The notes under the pieces: model-generated
The model's database searches: none
Seen by the model: the letters and a program-made list of their open reading frames with translations, nothing else
What the model was told of the DNA's origin: nothing
Part shown: piece by piece, positions 2,776 through 58,637 of the stretch
How positions within the stretch are numbered: position 1 is the first letter of the stretch
Layout of the letters: every line of letters starts with the position of its first letter
Position numbers and translations under genes: made by a program
From: Cryobacterium sp. GrIS_2_6
GTDB taxonomy: Bacteria > Actinomycetota > Actinomycetes > Actinomycetales > Microbacteriaceae
DNA length: 64,000 nt
Assembly: GCF_035984545.1 (NCBI RefSeq)
Contig: NZ_JAXCHP010000001.1
Span: 4,030,001 to 4,094,000 of the forward strand
Direction of reading: 5' to 3'

Positions 2776-4448
2776 GCGGGCACAGCAACGACCAGAGCCT
2801 TTACCGCGAACGCGATGTCGTCCAGGTTCGGCGGGCGCTCATCTCGGTGAGCGACAAGACCGGCCTGGTCGAGCTCGCGGCTGCCCTCGTGGCGACCGGC
2901 GTCGAAATCGTGTCGACGGGGTCCACCGCGGCGAGCATCCGTGCCGCGGGCTTCGCCGTGACCGATGTCGCCGCCGTCACGGGATTCCCGGAATCCCTCG
3001 ACGGCCGGGTCAAAACCCTGCACCCCGGAGTGCACGCCGGCATCCTCGCCGACCTGCGGCTCGCCGCCCACGAGGCCCAGCTCACCGAGCTCGGCATCGC
3101 GCCCTTCGAGCTCGTCGTGGTGAACCTCTACCCCTTCGTCGAGACCGTGAATTCCGGCGCCCCCGCTGCCGAGGTCATCGAGCAGATCGACATCGGCGGC
3201 CCCGCACTCGTGCGCGCCGCGGCGAAGAACCACCCGAACGTCGCGATCGTGGTTGACCCGGAGAACTACGGCGAGATCGTCACCGCCGTCTCCGCAGGGG
3301 GAACGACGCTCGAGCTGCGCCGCAAGCTCGCCTCGCTCGCCTTCGAGCACACGGCCGGCTACGACCTGAGCGTCTCCGCGTGGTTCACCGAGAACGTCTA
3401 CGACCAGTGGCAGGACGACACCGAGGCCCTCGATGAGGCCATCCTCGACGAGTTCGACGCCGTGATCGGCACCGCCTTCGACGACGAGGGCCCCTTCCCC
3501 GGAACCCTCGCGATCGAGGCCACCCGCGGCAGCGTGTTGCGCTACGGCGAGAACTCGCACCAGGCCGCCGCGCTCTACCTCGGCGAAGGCGGAGAGGGCA
3601 TCGCCCAGGCGGTGCAGCGCCACGGCAAGGAGATGTCGTACAACAACTACGTCGACGCCGATGCCGCCGTGCGCGCTGCCTTCGACTTCGCCGAACCCGC
3701 CGTCGCCATCATCAAGCACGCCAACCCGTGCGGCATCGCCGTGGCCAACCCCAAGGCACCGGATGCGATCGCCTCGGCCCACAAGCGGGCTCACGACTGC
3801 GACCCCGTCTCCGCATTCGGCGGGGTCATCGCGGCCAACCGCATCGTGACCCTCGGCATGGCCGAGACCGTCAGCCAGATCTTCACCGAGGTGCTCGTCG
3901 CGCCCGGCTTCGAACCGGCCGCGTTCGAACTGCTCAGCCAGAAGAAGAACATCCGCCTGCTCGAGCTTCCGGAGAACTACCACCGTTCCTCGCTCGAGCT
4001 TCGCCAGATCTCCGGCGGGTTGCTCGTGCAGGAGACCGACTCGTTCGAAGACTTCGACTCTTCGACCTGGACCCTTGCCGCCGGCGAGGAAGTCGACGCG
4101 GCCACCCGCGCAGACCTCGAGTTCGCGTGGAAGGCGTGCCGGTCCGTGAAGTCGAACGCGATCCTGCTCGCCCGCTCCGGCGCATCCGTCGGCGTGGGCA
4201 TGGGCCAGGTCAACCGGGTCGACTCGTGCCACCTCGCCGTGCTGCGCGCCGGGGACAGGGCCGCCGGCTCCGTGGCAGCCTCCGACGCGTTCTTCCCGTT
4301 CGCCGACGGCCTGCAGGTCCTCCTCGAGGCCGGGGTCACCGCGGTCGTACAGCCCGGAGGTTCGGTACGCGACCCCGAGGTCATCGCCGCTGCCGCAGAG
4401 GCCGGCGTCGCGATGTACTTCACCGGAGAGCGCCACTTCTTCCACTGA
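2772..4448 (+). CDS. purH: Bifunctional AICAR transformylase / IMP cyclohydrolase
   Basis: Catalyses the last two steps of IMP synthesis: formylation of AICAR with 10-formyl-THF, then ring closure. 558 residues. The N-terminal third is an MGS-like cyclohydrolase domain ([15 protein letters not shown], then [13 protein letters not shown] and [18 protein letters not shown]). The rest is the AICARFT domain, with the KHANPCG motif near residue 315 carrying the catalytic Lys-His pair, and [11 protein letters not shown] and [13 protein letters not shown] further on. It follows purN with a 4-base overlap. No ZTP riboswitch was seen upstream; the one in this window is in front of glyA. A palindromic repeat split by an IS begins a few bases after the stop. 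Confidence 0.97.
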
Positions 4449-12396: not shown

Positions 12397-12483
12397 GGCA
12401 TCCGCACGATTTACGGCGGATGCCGGTCCGCGAGAAGACAGGAATGGCCCGTTCGCTGTGCGCGAGGGGCCATTTCTCTGTCT
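12397..12483. terminator. Two hairpins between convergent transcription units
   Basis: The first hairpin pairs GGCATCCGC (12397-12405) with GCGGATGCC (12416-12424). The second is longer, pairing the bases at 12436-12450 with 12467-12483 (AGACAG...CTGTCT outer stem, GGCCC/GGGCC inner). They sit between the ABC exporter operon (plus) and the PTS IIA gene (minus) and probably stop both. Neither is followed by a long T-run. Confidence 0.65.
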
Positions 12484-12498
12484 CGCGAACCTGACAGG

Positions 12499-12993
12499 TC
12501 AGGATATGACGGTGAGGAAGAGGTCGCCGCTGGCAAGCTCCGCGCCCGCAGTGACGGCGTCGGCGAGGTCGATGTTCTCGTGTGCGCGCTCGAGGATGAT
12601 GACCGGCACGATGGGATTGCGTCCGCCCGCCTCGACGGCCGCGGAGTCCCAGGTCACGATCACGTCGCCGGCTGCGACCTCATCGCCCTGCTTCGCCCGC
12701 AGGGTGAAGCCCTCGCCGCGGAGCTCGACGGTGTCGATGCCGAGGTGGACGAGGACGCCGATCCCGTCGGGGGAGAGGATCACAAAGGCGTGCGGGAAGA
12801 CCTTGAGCAGCCTGCCGCTGATCGGCGCGATCGCGTCGACCATGCCCCGCGGCGGGTCGATCGCGGCGCCGGGACCCACGATCGCCTGGGCGAACGTGGG
12901 ATCGGGGACCTCGGCGAGGCTGACGGCGCGACCGGGGACGGGCGCGAGGACGATGACGGGCGTCACGAGAACGACGGGAGCCCCACGGCTCAC
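12499..12993 (-). CDS. PTS EIIA component, glucose/N-acetylglucosamine (Crr) type
   Basis: 164 residues, cytoplasmic phosphocarrier that receives phosphate from HPr and passes it to EIIB. It has the EIIA-Glc signature: His in FPHAFVILSPDG and the phosphorylated His in VLVHLGIDTVELRGEGF. The start is GTG 12993, overlapping the stop of the EIIB gene by four bases (GTGA), which rules out the much longer open frame upstream. The C-terminus ends SGDLFLTVIS. EIIA, EIIB and EIIC are separate polypeptides here; the EIIC gene lies across the divergent promoter. Confidence 0.9.
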   Translation of the reverse strand: MSRGAPVVLVTPVIVLAPVPGRAVSLAEVPDPTFAQAIVGPGAAIDPPRGMVDAIAPISGRLLKVFPHAFVILSPDGIGVLVHLGIDTVELRGEGFTLRAKQGDEVAAGDVIVTWDSAAVEAGGRNPIVPVIILERAHENIDLADAVTAGAELASGDLFLTVIS

Positions 12994-39574: not shown

Positions 39575-39582
39575 TAGGATTT

Positions 39583-39668
39583 GCGTGTCGCAACTGGCGT
39601 AGCACGAAAGATGGGTCACCATCGGGGAGCGACTGACACGGTTAGTGGCCGCACGCCTGGGCCACGAC
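39583..39668 (+). ncRNA. ZTP riboswitch (pfl motif) in the glyA leader
   Basis: The conserved pfl blocks appear in order: GTGTCGCAACTGGCG (39585-39599), TCACCATCGGGGAGCG (39616-39631), and after a variable linker CCGCACGCCTGGGC (39649-39662), the family's strongest signature near the pseudoknot. pfl RNAs bind ZTP/ZMP, which build up when 10-formyl-THF is short, and are known upstream of glyA, folD and purH. The glyA ribosome site GAGGAG and GTG start follow within about 30 nt, so control of translation initiation or of early termination is plausible. Confidence 0.85.
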
Positions 39669-39694
39669 GATTAATTCAAAGTCTGAGGAGACCC

Positions 39695-53448: not shown

Positions 53449-54093
53449 TTGGCAGAGGACTTCCACAAGCCCACCCAGTTCTCGGGCAGCAAGTTCGAAT
53501 CCTTCGAGGGTGGCCAGGATCCGGCGGCAATCAGCCGGGTCGCGCATGAGACGGCGCACGCGCTGCTCGCCCGGGTGCGGAACGACCCCGATCCCGACGT
53601 CGTCGAGCGCCTCGTCGCGTACACCGACGAACACGGCATCGACGCGGTCGCCGAACTGTGGTCGCGCGCAACGCCGCGCAGCCTGCCCGGCGCGCTCTGG
53701 CGGATCTACCTCGTCCGCCTGCTCATCCGCCAGGATCCTGAAGGCACGTCGTTCCTCTACCAGCGCGGCACCGAGGTCACCGTGGCGATCGACCCCGTCA
53801 TCGCCGGAGCCGCCGCGCCGACCGGCCCCGCCGAGATCATCGCCCTCGCCGACCAGATCCTCCGCGGCATCTTCACGGGCGACTTCGCCGTCGCGCTCGA
53901 CCGTGCCGCGGCGTTCTGCCGGGTCATCGCAAGCGGATGCGCGAGTGTCGCCGACGACCTTGACGCGACGGAACTCGCTGCATCCGGGGTGTCCCGCGCC
54001 TCGGAACTGACCACTCGCGCCCTGCGGTTCTCGACGACGGCCCAGGAGTTCGGATCGTGCGCCCGGTTGTGGCGCAGCGATTCGCTCGACTAG
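53449..54093 (+). CDS. Conserved hypothetical protein (Microbacteriaceae type)
   Basis: 214 residues from TTG 53449, with ACGGAGGA upstream. Begins MAEDFHKPTQFSGSKFESFE; HETAHALLARVRNDPDPDVV and ELWSRATPRSLPGALWRIYL suggest an all-helical protein. Two similar helical halves may be present (LIRQDP..., GIFTGDFAVALDRAAAFCRV). I recall close relatives in this family being annotated as an RNA polymerase beta subunit, which the sequence does not support. No membrane segment. Its stop codon overlaps the ECF-type promoter that follows. Confidence 0.6.
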   Translation: MAEDFHKPTQFSGSKFESFEGGQDPAAISRVAHETAHALLARVRNDPDPDVVERLVAYTDEHGIDAVAELWSRATPRSLPGALWRIYLVRLLIRQDPEGTSFLYQRGTEVTVAIDPVIAGAAAPTGPAEIIALADQILRGIFTGDFAVALDRAAAFCRVIASGCASVADDLDATELAASGVSRASELTTRALRFSTTAQEFGSCARLWRSDSLD

Positions 54094-54117
54094 GAATAAA
54101 CATCCGTCTTCGTCGTT
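54093..54117 (+). promoter_or_regulatory. ECF-sigma-type promoter upstream of sigK
   Basis: GGAAT (54093-54097), a 16-nt spacer and CGTT (54114-54117): the classic -35/-10 pair of group IV (ECF) sigma factors. ECF genes are often autoregulated from such promoters, and sigK lies 178 bases downstream. Transcription from here would include the structured RNA at 54131-54221 in the sigK leader. Confidence 0.6.
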
Positions 54118-54130
54118 TACACTGGATGCT

Positions 54131-54221
54131 GGTCGGGCCGCAGTAACCCCGGGCTCCAATATTCGCCGCTCTGAGCGGCCTCGCGCCGAGAGGCGTTCTG
54201 CGGCCCGGCCTTCAGCTTTTT
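54131..54221 (+). ncRNA. Structured RNA element in the sigK leader
   Basis: A 13-bp closing stem, GGTCGGGCCGCAG (54131-54143) with CTGCGGCCCGGCC (54198-54210), encloses two smaller hairpins: GCCGCT-CTG-AGCGGC (54165-54179), and CGCC-GAGA-GGCG (54184-54195) with a GNRA tetraloop. A single-stranded stretch TAACCCCGGGCTCCAATATT (54144-54163) stays on the 5' side. Five T follow at 54217-54221. It could be a small RNA, an attenuator or a riboregulator. It matches no RNA family I recognise. Confidence 0.5.
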
Positions 54222-54294
54222 CTGACCAATCCATTTCGTGTTCGGCGCCGAACACTAGTCATGGAACGGGATAAGACCTGACATGCTGGTTCTC

Positions 54295-54879
54295 ATGACT
54301 GCTGACTTCGCCGCTGACACCGAGTCGACAGCGCCGCCCTCAAAAGAGGAGCTGCTAACCCGGGTCGCCACTGGCGACCAGGCGGCCTTCGGGGAACTGT
54401 ACGACCAGATGGCCCCTCGGGTGCTCGGTCTGGTCAAGCGCCTGCTCATCGACCACGCCCAGTCGGAAGAAGTGACCCAGGAGATCTTCCTGGAGATCTG
54501 GCAGTCGGCGACGCGGTACGAGCCGGCGCGTGGCGGGGCTTCCACCTGGATCATGACCATGGCGCACCGACGTGCGGTCGACCGGATCAGGTCGTCCCAG
54601 GCCGGCCGCGACCGGGACACGAAAATCGGCATCCGCGACCTCGCGGTTGCCTACGACGACGTGTCCGAGACCGTAGAAACACGAATCGAGCATGAAAGGG
54701 TGGAGAGGGCGATGTCCAGACTGACCGAACTGCAACGCCAGGCGATCGGTCTTGCCTACTACGGGGGCTTCAGTCAGAGCGAAGTCGCCGCCCAACTGCA
54801 TATCCCGCTCGGGACCGTGAAGACGAGACTCAGGGACGGGCTCATCCGCCTTCGCGACGAACTGGGCGTGGCATCATGA
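54295..54879 (+). CDS. sigK: ECF RNA polymerase sigma factor, SigK type
   Basis: 194 residues from ATG 54295 (ATG 54283 is an alternative). Region 2: AFGELYDQMAPRVLGLVKRL and SEEVTQEIFLEIWQSATRYE, the core-binding and -10 recognition helices. Region 4: LTELQRQAIGLAYYGGFSQS then VAAQLHIPLGTVKTRLRDGL, the -35 recognition HTH. It overlaps the anti-sigma gene by four bases. In Mycobacterium, SigK is held by RskA and released by regulated proteolysis. Confidence 0.9.
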   Translation: MTADFAADTESTAPPSKEELLTRVATGDQAAFGELYDQMAPRVLGLVKRLLIDHAQSEEVTQEIFLEIWQSATRYEPARGGASTWIMTMAHRRAVDRIRSSQAGRDRDTKIGIRDLAVAYDDVSETVETRIEHERVERAMSRLTELQRQAIGLAYYGGFSQSEVAAQLHIPLGTVKTRLRDGLIRLRDELGVAS

Positions 54880-56719: not shown

Positions 56720-57499
56720 TTAGCCGAAGCGGCCGGAGACGTAGTCCTCGGTCGCCTGTACCGACGGGTTCGAGAAGATCGTCGTGGTGTCGTTGTACTC
56801 GATGAGCTTGCCCGGCTTGCCGGTGCCGGCGATGTTAAAGAAGCCGGTGCGGTCGGAGACCCGGGATGCCTGCTGCATGTTGTGCGTGACGATGACGATC
56901 GTGTATTCGGCCTTCATCTCCTCGATGAGGTCCTCGATCGCGAGGGTGGAGATCGGGTCGAGGGCCGAGCACGGCTCGTCCATCAGGATCACGTCGGGCT
57001 GCACGGCGATCGCACGGGCGATGCAGAGCCGCTGCTGCTGGCCGCCGGAGAGGCTCGAGCCTGGCTTGTCGAGGCGGTCCTTGACCTCGTTCCAGAGGTT
57101 GGCGCCCTGGAGGGACTTCTCGATGAGGGCATCCGCGTCCGGCTTGGAGATGCGGCGGTTGTTGAGCTTCACGCCGGCAAGGACGTTGTCGCCGATCGAC
57201 ATGGTCGGGAACGGGTTCGGCCGCTGGAACACCATGCCGACCTGGCGGCGCACGAGCACCGGGTCGACGCCGGGGCCGTAGAGGTTGTTGCCGTCGATGA
57301 GCACCTCGCCCGTGACGTAGGCGCCGGGGATGACTTCGTGCATCCGGTTCAGGGTGCGGAGGAAGGTGGACTTACCGCACCCGCTCGGCCCGATCAGGGC
57401 GGTCACCGTGCGGGGCTCGATCGTCAGCGTGACGTTTTCGACAGCGAGGAACTTGCTGTAATAGACGTTGAGGTCGTTGACTTCAATGCGCTTGGACAT
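56720..57499 (-). CDS. pstB: Phosphate ABC transporter ATP-binding protein
   Basis: ATPase of the high-affinity phosphate importer, 259 residues. Walker [10 protein letters not shown] (37-45), Q-loop [17 protein letters not shown], signature [17 protein letters not shown], Walker [15 protein letters not shown] and H-loop [13 protein letters not shown] are complete. Last gene of pstSCAB, 37 bases after pstA. Confidence 0.97.
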
Positions 57500-57536
57500 G
57501 TGATCCTTCGAGTTGCGGCCAGCGGCCGGGTGGAGC

Positions 57537-58637
57537 CTAGCGGCCGAGCTTGGGGGAGAAGATTTTGGCGATGAGCCTCGCGAGGCCGTTCAGGAGCATG
57601 ACGATGAGCACCAGGGTGAGTGCGCCGGCCCAGGCCCTGTCGAGATACGCCTGGGTGTCCGTGCCCTGGTTCGCGTACTGGGTGTACACGAACACCGGGA
57701 GGGTCATCATCCGCTGGCTGAACAGGTCGTAGTTCATGCTCGCCGTGAAGCCGGAGATGATCAGCAGCGGGGCCGTCTCGCCGATGACCCGGGAGATCGA
57801 GATCATGATGCCCGTGACGATGCCGGCGATCGAGGTCGGAAGCACCACCTTGAGAATGGTCAGCCACTTCGGCACGCCGAGGGCGTATGCGGCCTCGCGC
57901 AGTTCGTTCGGCACGAGTTTGAGCATTTCCTCGCTCGAGCGCACCACGACCGGGATCATCAGCACCGAGAGAGCGATGGCACCGCCGAAGCCGAAGCGGA
58001 TGCCCGCATCCTGGAACAGCAGGGAGAAGAAGGCGAAGGCGAACAGGCCGGCCACGATCGAGGGGATGCCGGTCATCACGTCCACGAAGAAGGTGATCGC
58101 CTGGGAAAGCCGGCCGCGTCCGTACTCGGTGAGGTAGATCGCGGCGAGCAGGCCGATCGGCACCGAGATGATAGTGGCGACGCCGGTGATCTCGAGTGTG
58201 CCCATGATGGCGTGCAGGGCGCCGCCGCCAGCGCCGACGACGTTGCGCTGCGACTCGGTGAAGAACGTCGGGGTGAGGAAGGCCGGCAGCCCGTTGACGA
58301 CCGTCGTGAAGACCAGCGAGATCAGCGGCAGCAGTGCGACCACGAAGGCGGCGGTGACGAGGGCGGTGACGAGGCGGTCCTTCGCCCGGCGCACGCCTTC
58401 GACGGCGTACGAGAGCGCGTAGATGGCGACGCAGTAGAGCACGGTGCCGAAGAAGACCGTGCCGACGATGTTGAAGCCGGAGGTGGCCCCCGACAGCTGG
58501 AGCACCAGGAATACCGCCCCTGTGACGATCCAGCTCGCGAGCAGCACATAGAGCGTGGAGTTCCGGGGCAGTTTGCCGGCGGCGTATGCGTTGGCCTGGG
58601 GCGTGTTCGCGGCCCGGGTGGCGGTCGTGCTGCTCAT
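57537..58637 (-). CDS. pstA: Phosphate ABC transporter permease PstA
   Basis: 366 residues, longer than E. coli PstA because of an N-terminal extension with extra helices ([20 protein letters not shown] and an [20 protein letters not shown] stretch). The permease domain has the EAA-type loop [26 protein letters not shown]. The start shares one base with the pstC stop. Partner of PstC in the membrane. Confidence 0.94.

Follow-up and report, generated by a model that had tools for sequence, protein, structure and literature searches.

A conserved, covarying structured RNA beside sigK of Cryobacterium, preceded in most lineages outside its order by a predicted SigR/SigH-type promoter

In the genome of Cryobacterium sp. 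GrIS_2_6, the ECF sigma factor gene sigK (54283-54879, + strand; Pfam Sigma70_r2 and r4), itself followed by a gene matching RskA_C, has a candidate structured RNA as its upstream neighbour. Coordinates refer to the window, i.e., the 64,000-nt stretch of contig NZ_JAXCHP010000001.1 that was analysed. A preliminary description of this stretch saw an ECF-type promoter followed by a folded RNA, and left three options for the latter: an attenuator, a stand-alone small RNA (sRNA) made by SigK, or a sensor for the same stress. The locus raises the question of whether the RNA belongs to sigK or is a gene of its own, and if the latter, which sigma factor makes it and how it might act.

Fold and conservation of the RNA

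The structured core (54131-54210, +; delimited by covariance models R1 and R2, see below) is predicted to be closed by a stem, P1, whose 5′ strand (54131-54143, +) pairs with its 3′ strand (54198-54210, +) in 13 bp, one of them G·U. P1 encloses a C-rich single strand, J1/2 (54144-54164, +), a hairpin P2 (GCCGCT-CTG-AGCGGC; 54165-54179, +) and a hairpin P3 capped by a GNRA-type loop, GAGA (54184-54195, +). A run of five T (54217-54221, +), shared by only some relatives, follows and is possibly the U-tract of a terminator made by P1. The 13-bp closing stem, the two inner hairpins, one of them GAGA-capped, and the five T of the preliminary description match letter by letter, and its unpaired strand is present too, measuring 21 nt instead of the 20 nt given. 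By folding energy, the RNA stands out to a moderate degree (z = −2.44; 2 of 200 shuffles equally stable).

A blastn search with 54040-54400 returned matches in 189 of 199 relatives; in those listed matches that lie outside the genus but within the family, the aligned part is chiefly the RNA, at 81-99% identity. Covariance model R1, built from MAFFT alignment A1, matched 225 of 394 genomes of the class, and R2, rebuilt to include distant members, matched 243 of the 394, mostly with a single copy per genome. When a phylum-wide draw was searched, 22 of 296 genomes were matched, every one of them inside the class. The model spans 84 positions and its matches 82-126 nt; the core measures 84-92 nt in most copies, and P2 is longer in some families, whose matches reach 107-126 nt. 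One pattern scan of genome contigs, with the mycobacterial form as the pattern, added 54 stretches (L141-L194), which by title come from Mycobacterium or Mycolicibacterium (46), Rhodococcus (5), Nocardia (2) and one metagenome bin (Rhodobiaceae). Copies that we call Streptomyces-like (family f37) were so assigned from, among other features, a gene order of HelD-like, malic enzyme and HU-like genes, the HelD matches falling below curated cut-offs. In one genome (L139) the RNA occurs as tandem copies at 2892-2977 and 3074-3159, and a Streptomyces-like genome (L272) has two additional, longer and weaker copies about 3.5 kb apart beside the usual one.

Alignment A1 (65 sequences) was fitted to no structure, and 10 of the 23 predicted pairs in it are changed on both sides. 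Alignments A3 (61 rows, 60 distinct) and A4 (100 rows, 88 distinct) were fitted to the structure and are hence biased toward it; in A3, 98.5% of cells pair, compared with 84.1% after shuffling, and the covariation score of 0.414 (shuffled, 0.140) was reached by none of 500 shuffles, while versions of the A3 structure slid along the alignment drop to 32-47% paired. The corresponding values for A4 are 98.2% versus 80.0% and 0.450 versus 0.134. A further alignment, A2, was left out of the counts because of its weak reverse-strand matches. The ten outer P1 pairs of the model all show double changes, in both A3 and A4, and the second pair of P2 is CG in 38 and UA in 22 of the 60 distinct A3 sequences. 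The preliminary description had proposed a covariance model and a search for covarying pairs, with missing covariation as the outcome that would count against the element; covariation proved strong. Conservation and covariation, rather than folding energy, are what decides at the level of sequence comparison that the element is real: a conserved, covarying structured RNA across the class, with a predicted fold in which P1 encloses the C-rich strand, hairpin P2 and the GNRA-capped P3.

Predicted promoters of the RNA

Upstream of the RNA, GGAAT (54093-54097) and GTT (54115-54117) form a predicted ECF promoter of the SigR/SigH type, GGAAT-N17-GTT (54093-54117, +), the same letters that the preliminary description gave as GGAAT-N16-CGTT. 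Its −10 is overlapped by a sigma-A-like −10, TACACT (54118-54123, +), which that description lacked. GGAA-N16..19-GTT lies within 50 nt upstream of the RNA at 40 of 110 loci, compared with 8 of 2,200 random 50-mers, and is distributed as 20/30 in the genus, 5/51 at loci L031-L081, 1/9 at L082-L090 and 14/20 at L121-L140, so that few loci from other genera of the window's order (L031-L090) retain it. For TAnnnT at −20 to −9, the same four sets give 30/30, 49/51, 7/9 and 9/20, against 43 of 2,700 random positions.

Outside the window's order, GGAA-N18-GTT or its N19 form precedes the RNA at 88 of 95 distinct loci versus 11 of 2,850 random 60-mers, where 49 of the 95 loci stem from the pattern scan, are mostly mycobacterial and are not independent; with the pattern-fetched L141-L194 left out, the motif is present at 40 of 46 loci. 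Among the 88, the spacer is N18 in 81 and N19 in 7, and the motif stands 9 nt before P1 in 57. The 95-locus set results from 100 rows with identical ones merged; L180, whose upstream part is too short, was left out, and two families outside the order, f38 and f45, were counted separately. In these two, the ECF motif is found at 1 of 13 distinct loci (L134-L138 are among those without it) and TAnnnT at 10 of 13; the f38 copies carry neither promoter form. With both families included, the tally of copies with a predicted ECF promoter outside the order comes to 89 of 108 distinct ones.

GGAAT-N18-GTT is the consensus of SigR/SigH promoters; outside the order, most lineages have a predicted promoter of this form before the RNA, and the window's copy has N17. 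The Cryobacterium genome shows that form at its own sigR/sigH-like gene as well: it has one SigH/SigR-like gene above the NCBIfam cut-off, with GGAAT-N18-GTT upstream and, after it, an anti-sigma gene that looks RsrA-like when judged by eye. GGAATN16-18GTT occurs 194 times in this genome, compared with 41 occurrences of the reversed pattern, so a single instance is weak evidence, and it is the fixed position across loci that counts. A SigR/SigH-like sigma factor is present in 35 of 35 genomes tested, 20 of which have no RNA match, so the presence of the sigma factor is no predictor of the RNA. As an ECF promoter, the motif of the preliminary description stands; its type, judged by the GGAA-N18-GTT form in relatives, is that of SigR/SigH.

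In the window, where the ECF spacer is 17 nt, the sigma-A-like −10 may be the true one, and throughout the window's order a sigma-A-like −10 appears to overlie or replace the ECF promoter. Under thiol-oxidative or heat stress, a SigR/SigH-type factor would very probably transcribe the RNA wherever the ECF promoter is present, and in the window's order and in family f45 control of expression would have passed, in full or in part, to sigma-A.

Stretches similar to the RNA also lie on plasmids. The mycobacterial query found them on 42 Rhodococcus and Gordonia plasmid records, the Streptomyces-like query on 28 Rhodococcus plasmid records and the window query on 2 Arthrobacter plasmid records. All four Rhodococcus/Gordonia plasmid copies examined match R2 and carry GGAA(A/T)-N18-GTT (N19 in L200) in differing genomic contexts; no annotated feature lies under these four copies in the plasmid feature table, which carries no RNA genes. 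One Rhodococcus plasmid, NZ_CP021355.1, has five matching places. A scan of IMG/VR returned a single contig (L206), with the RNA at 12460-12543 (+), near the contig end; its promoter is sigma-A-like, and it is one of the seven loci among the 95 without the ECF motif. A record labelled bacteriophage (L205, MT835541.1) holds a similar stretch together with DUF47 and PiT genes and is, by these genes, probably bacterial chromosome. With this sole phage record looking chromosomal and IMG/VR giving one contig, a phage origin of the RNA was rejected.

Possible action of the RNA and its separation from neighbouring genes

The CCCCGG motif in J1/2 is kept in 120 and the P3 motif GCCGNGAGGYG in 117 of 123 distinct RNAs, while the sequence of P1 varies; these counts exclude loci fetched by a pattern containing the C-rich motif (with them, 150/153 and 147/153), and the conservation is partly built in, as the copies were found through models or similarity. 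An exposed C-rich strand could pair with the G-rich ribosome-binding regions of mRNAs, in the manner described for other actinobacterial sRNAs rich in C, and the retention of CCCCGG speaks for such a base-pairing sRNA, as does the use of C-rich loops by mycobacterial sRNAs. However, sites complementary to the 14-nt C-rich strand (at most 2 mismatches) number 48 in the window's own genome versus 44 for the reversed control, and 802 versus 772 over 20 genomes, the 802 including the complement of the RNA genes themselves; without an excess over the control, the idea of many antisense targets was rejected. The putative seed is, moreover, hardly better conserved than P2 and P3. Pairing through a short seed, or with one target only, is possible, and we regard base pairing as a possible but rather doubtful mode of action.

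Since P1 varies, the motifs are kept and complementary sites are not in excess, an RNA-protein complex is favoured over a large antisense regulon. In such a complex, the near-invariant C-rich strand, P2 and P3 would form the binding face, and the variable P1 would merely close the fold; RNA polymerase, the ribosome or an RNA-binding protein is the candidate partner, and the RNA would act in trans on this machinery during stress. We give a binding face of this kind, with action in trans under stress, an even chance.

One option of the preliminary description, the RNA as a leader or attenuator of sigK traversed by each sigK transcript, now seems very unlikely. It is true that sigK lies 71-134 nt 3′ of the RNA at 30 of 30 loci of the genus, and that the five-T terminator looks weak, which would permit read-through from the RNA promoter into sigK. 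However, the motif AATCC-N16-CGAA(C/T) lies between the RNA and sigK at 39 of 52 sigK loci, including 29 of the 30 from the genus, compared with 64 of 1,040 in a random control that included windows over the true motif. In 28 of the 29 genus loci it lies 55 or 56 nt ahead of the sigK start, and in the window it reads AATCC-N16-CGAAC (54228-54253, +). This is probably the promoter of sigK itself, and we take it to resemble ECF19 promoters. The RNA lies outside the transcript that would start there. In other genera, among 60 loci, some of whose fetched stretches stop at contig ends, sigK is downstream on the same strand at 21, divergent at 1 and absent from the fetched stretch at 38, i.e., 39 of 60 are without a same-strand sigK downstream; in other families the RNA adjoins unrelated genes. 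On the strength of these 39 loci and the separate sigK promoter motif, the leader reading was rejected, and comparison across loci shows the predicted RNA gene to be independent of sigK. The option of a stand-alone sRNA thus survives from the preliminary description, whereas synthesis by SigK gains no support, given the SigR/SigH form of the promoter before the RNA and the separate motif downstream, and neither does the idea that every round of SigK output passes the RNA, given the putative sigK promoter after it. A perfect 18-nt palindrome, GTGTTCGGCGCCGAACAC, at 54238-54255 covers the −10 of the predicted sigK promoter; its core, TCGGNNCCGA, recurs in many loci of the genus and is perhaps a repressor site.

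A gene without a Pfam or NCBIfam match (53449-54093, +) lies upstream of the RNA on the same strand at 80 of 90 loci of the window's order (L001-L090), an arrangement that would suit the RNA being the 3′ end or terminator of this gene, perhaps an sRNA processed from its mRNA, but this is extremely unlikely: the −10 TACACT sits between the two, outside the order the upstream genes differ and the RNA stays paired with the ECF promoter in most lineages, and a plain terminator is not expected to preserve CCCCGG and the loop sequences. The first two of these points led us to reject a terminator-only reading, and the generic 3′ terminator that the preliminary description had named as its refutation was not borne out, as outside the order the RNA stands beside unrelated genes with its own predicted promoter.

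The neighbours vary by lineage: a mycobacterium has WhiB, Streptomyces-like genomes have HelD-like and malic enzyme genes, and part of the window's order has DUF47 and PiT genes. Of the 25 largest neighbour clusters, not one extends over all lineages, and no conserved neighbour hints at a function. Phosphate transport genes (pstB, pstA; 56720-58637, −) lie near the RNA in the window, and DUF47 and PiT genes lie downstream near it in L079, L084-L087, L090 and L204, so phosphate transport recurs in the window's order.

At 16 of 30 folded loci, the RNA has within 64 nt on its 3′ side a hairpin whose stability none of the 15 shuffles attains, e.g., −30.9, −36.7 and −43.3 kcal/mol in L121, L219 and L223, with shuffled means of −10.7, −15.9 and −17.0. 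Clear terminator-like hairpins are seen in L121, L122, L124, L129, L130, L131, L208, L218, L219, L223, L225 and L232, and in L001 it is the palindrome at the sigK promoter that forms the downstream hairpin. The other 14 loci, L125 and L126 among them, have no outstanding downstream hairpin, nor do 4 of the 6 folded loci from the window's order.

Taken as a whole, these findings are probably best explained by a stand-alone sRNA gene, linked to SigR/SigH in most lineages, whose product works as an RNA-protein complex. The RNA core is kept nearly letter for letter across the class, in Mycolicibacterium, Rhodococcus, Nocardia, Streptomyces-like genomes and the window's family; this near-identity, the one type of stress promoter in most lineages and the plasmid copies together suggest that the RNA is probably important. 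If our reading is true, the SigR/SigH oxidative-stress response gains a conserved RNA component. More tentatively, at somewhat less than an even chance, we propose a new class-wide RNA family, a ribonucleoprotein RNA under stress-sigma control that would belong to the core of the actinobacterial thiol-stress response, act on the transcription or translation machinery, be copied by large plasmids for the same regulon, and be constitutive or under dual control with sigma-A in the window's order.

Comparison with known RNAs

In the main text of open-licence papers, we recognised no earlier description of this RNA family. The accessible part of a genome-wide structured-RNA search (PMC8632094) contains none of the actinobacterial terms looked for, and the Streptomyces motifs in the accessible part of PMC11109978 are leaders of named genes. 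In agreement with the preliminary description, which knew of no RNA family at this position, Rfam 15 has no family that matches the window's copy of the element, nor at gathering score in 16 homologous loci, and at E up to 1 none on the RNA in L121, L126 and L131; a known RNA family was rejected on this basis. Elsewhere in the window, a ZMP/ZTP riboswitch lies at 39580-39669 (+; 58.7 bits).

Several actinobacterial sRNAs invite comparison. 6C RNA likewise has C runs, but carries them in hairpin loops, whereas the RNA here holds them in a junction strand, and the Rfam model of 6C RNA did not match the element. Mycobacterial F6 is an sRNA that depends on an alternative sigma factor, as the RNA here would; for sigma-dependent sRNAs such as F6, both the class of sigma factor and the host range are different. 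Ms1/6S-like RNAs are also stand-alone actinobacterial RNAs with a closing stem, but they form a single long hairpin with a bubble, whereas the shorter RNA here combines two hairpins with a C-rich strand. According to the accessible parts of the sources, 200-300 nt is expected for Ms1 (PMC9130861) and about 160-300 nt for Ms1/6S-like RNAs in general (PMC11077062, PMC9130861), compared with the 82-126 nt of our model matches. Closer in size is scr0792 of S. coelicolor, described in the accessible part of PMC11077062 as bound to RNA polymerase and encoded between SCO0791 and SCO0792; at about 85 nt and actinobacterial, it resembles the RNA here. As far as that description goes, the Streptomyces-like copies, which lie between HelD-like and malic enzyme genes, would by gene content lie elsewhere.

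The name of another S. coelicolor sRNA, scr2952, puts it beside SCO2952, which we take to be the helicase. SCO2951 is malic enzyme in the accessible part of PMC7494193, and in L121 and L281 the RNA lies between HelD-like and malic enzyme genes, consistent with the Streptomyces-like copy occupying the interval expected for scr2952. The accessible part of PMC8388888 says that expression of scr2952 was confirmed, reports its conservation in more than half of the tested Streptomyces and states that it is in Rfam, although L121-L124 have no Rfam match. As described there, scr2952 is a Streptomyces RNA given without a SigR-type promoter, fold or function, and it is by interval that the two are likened. 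The RNA described here may account for this Streptomyces sRNA, so far listed without a function.
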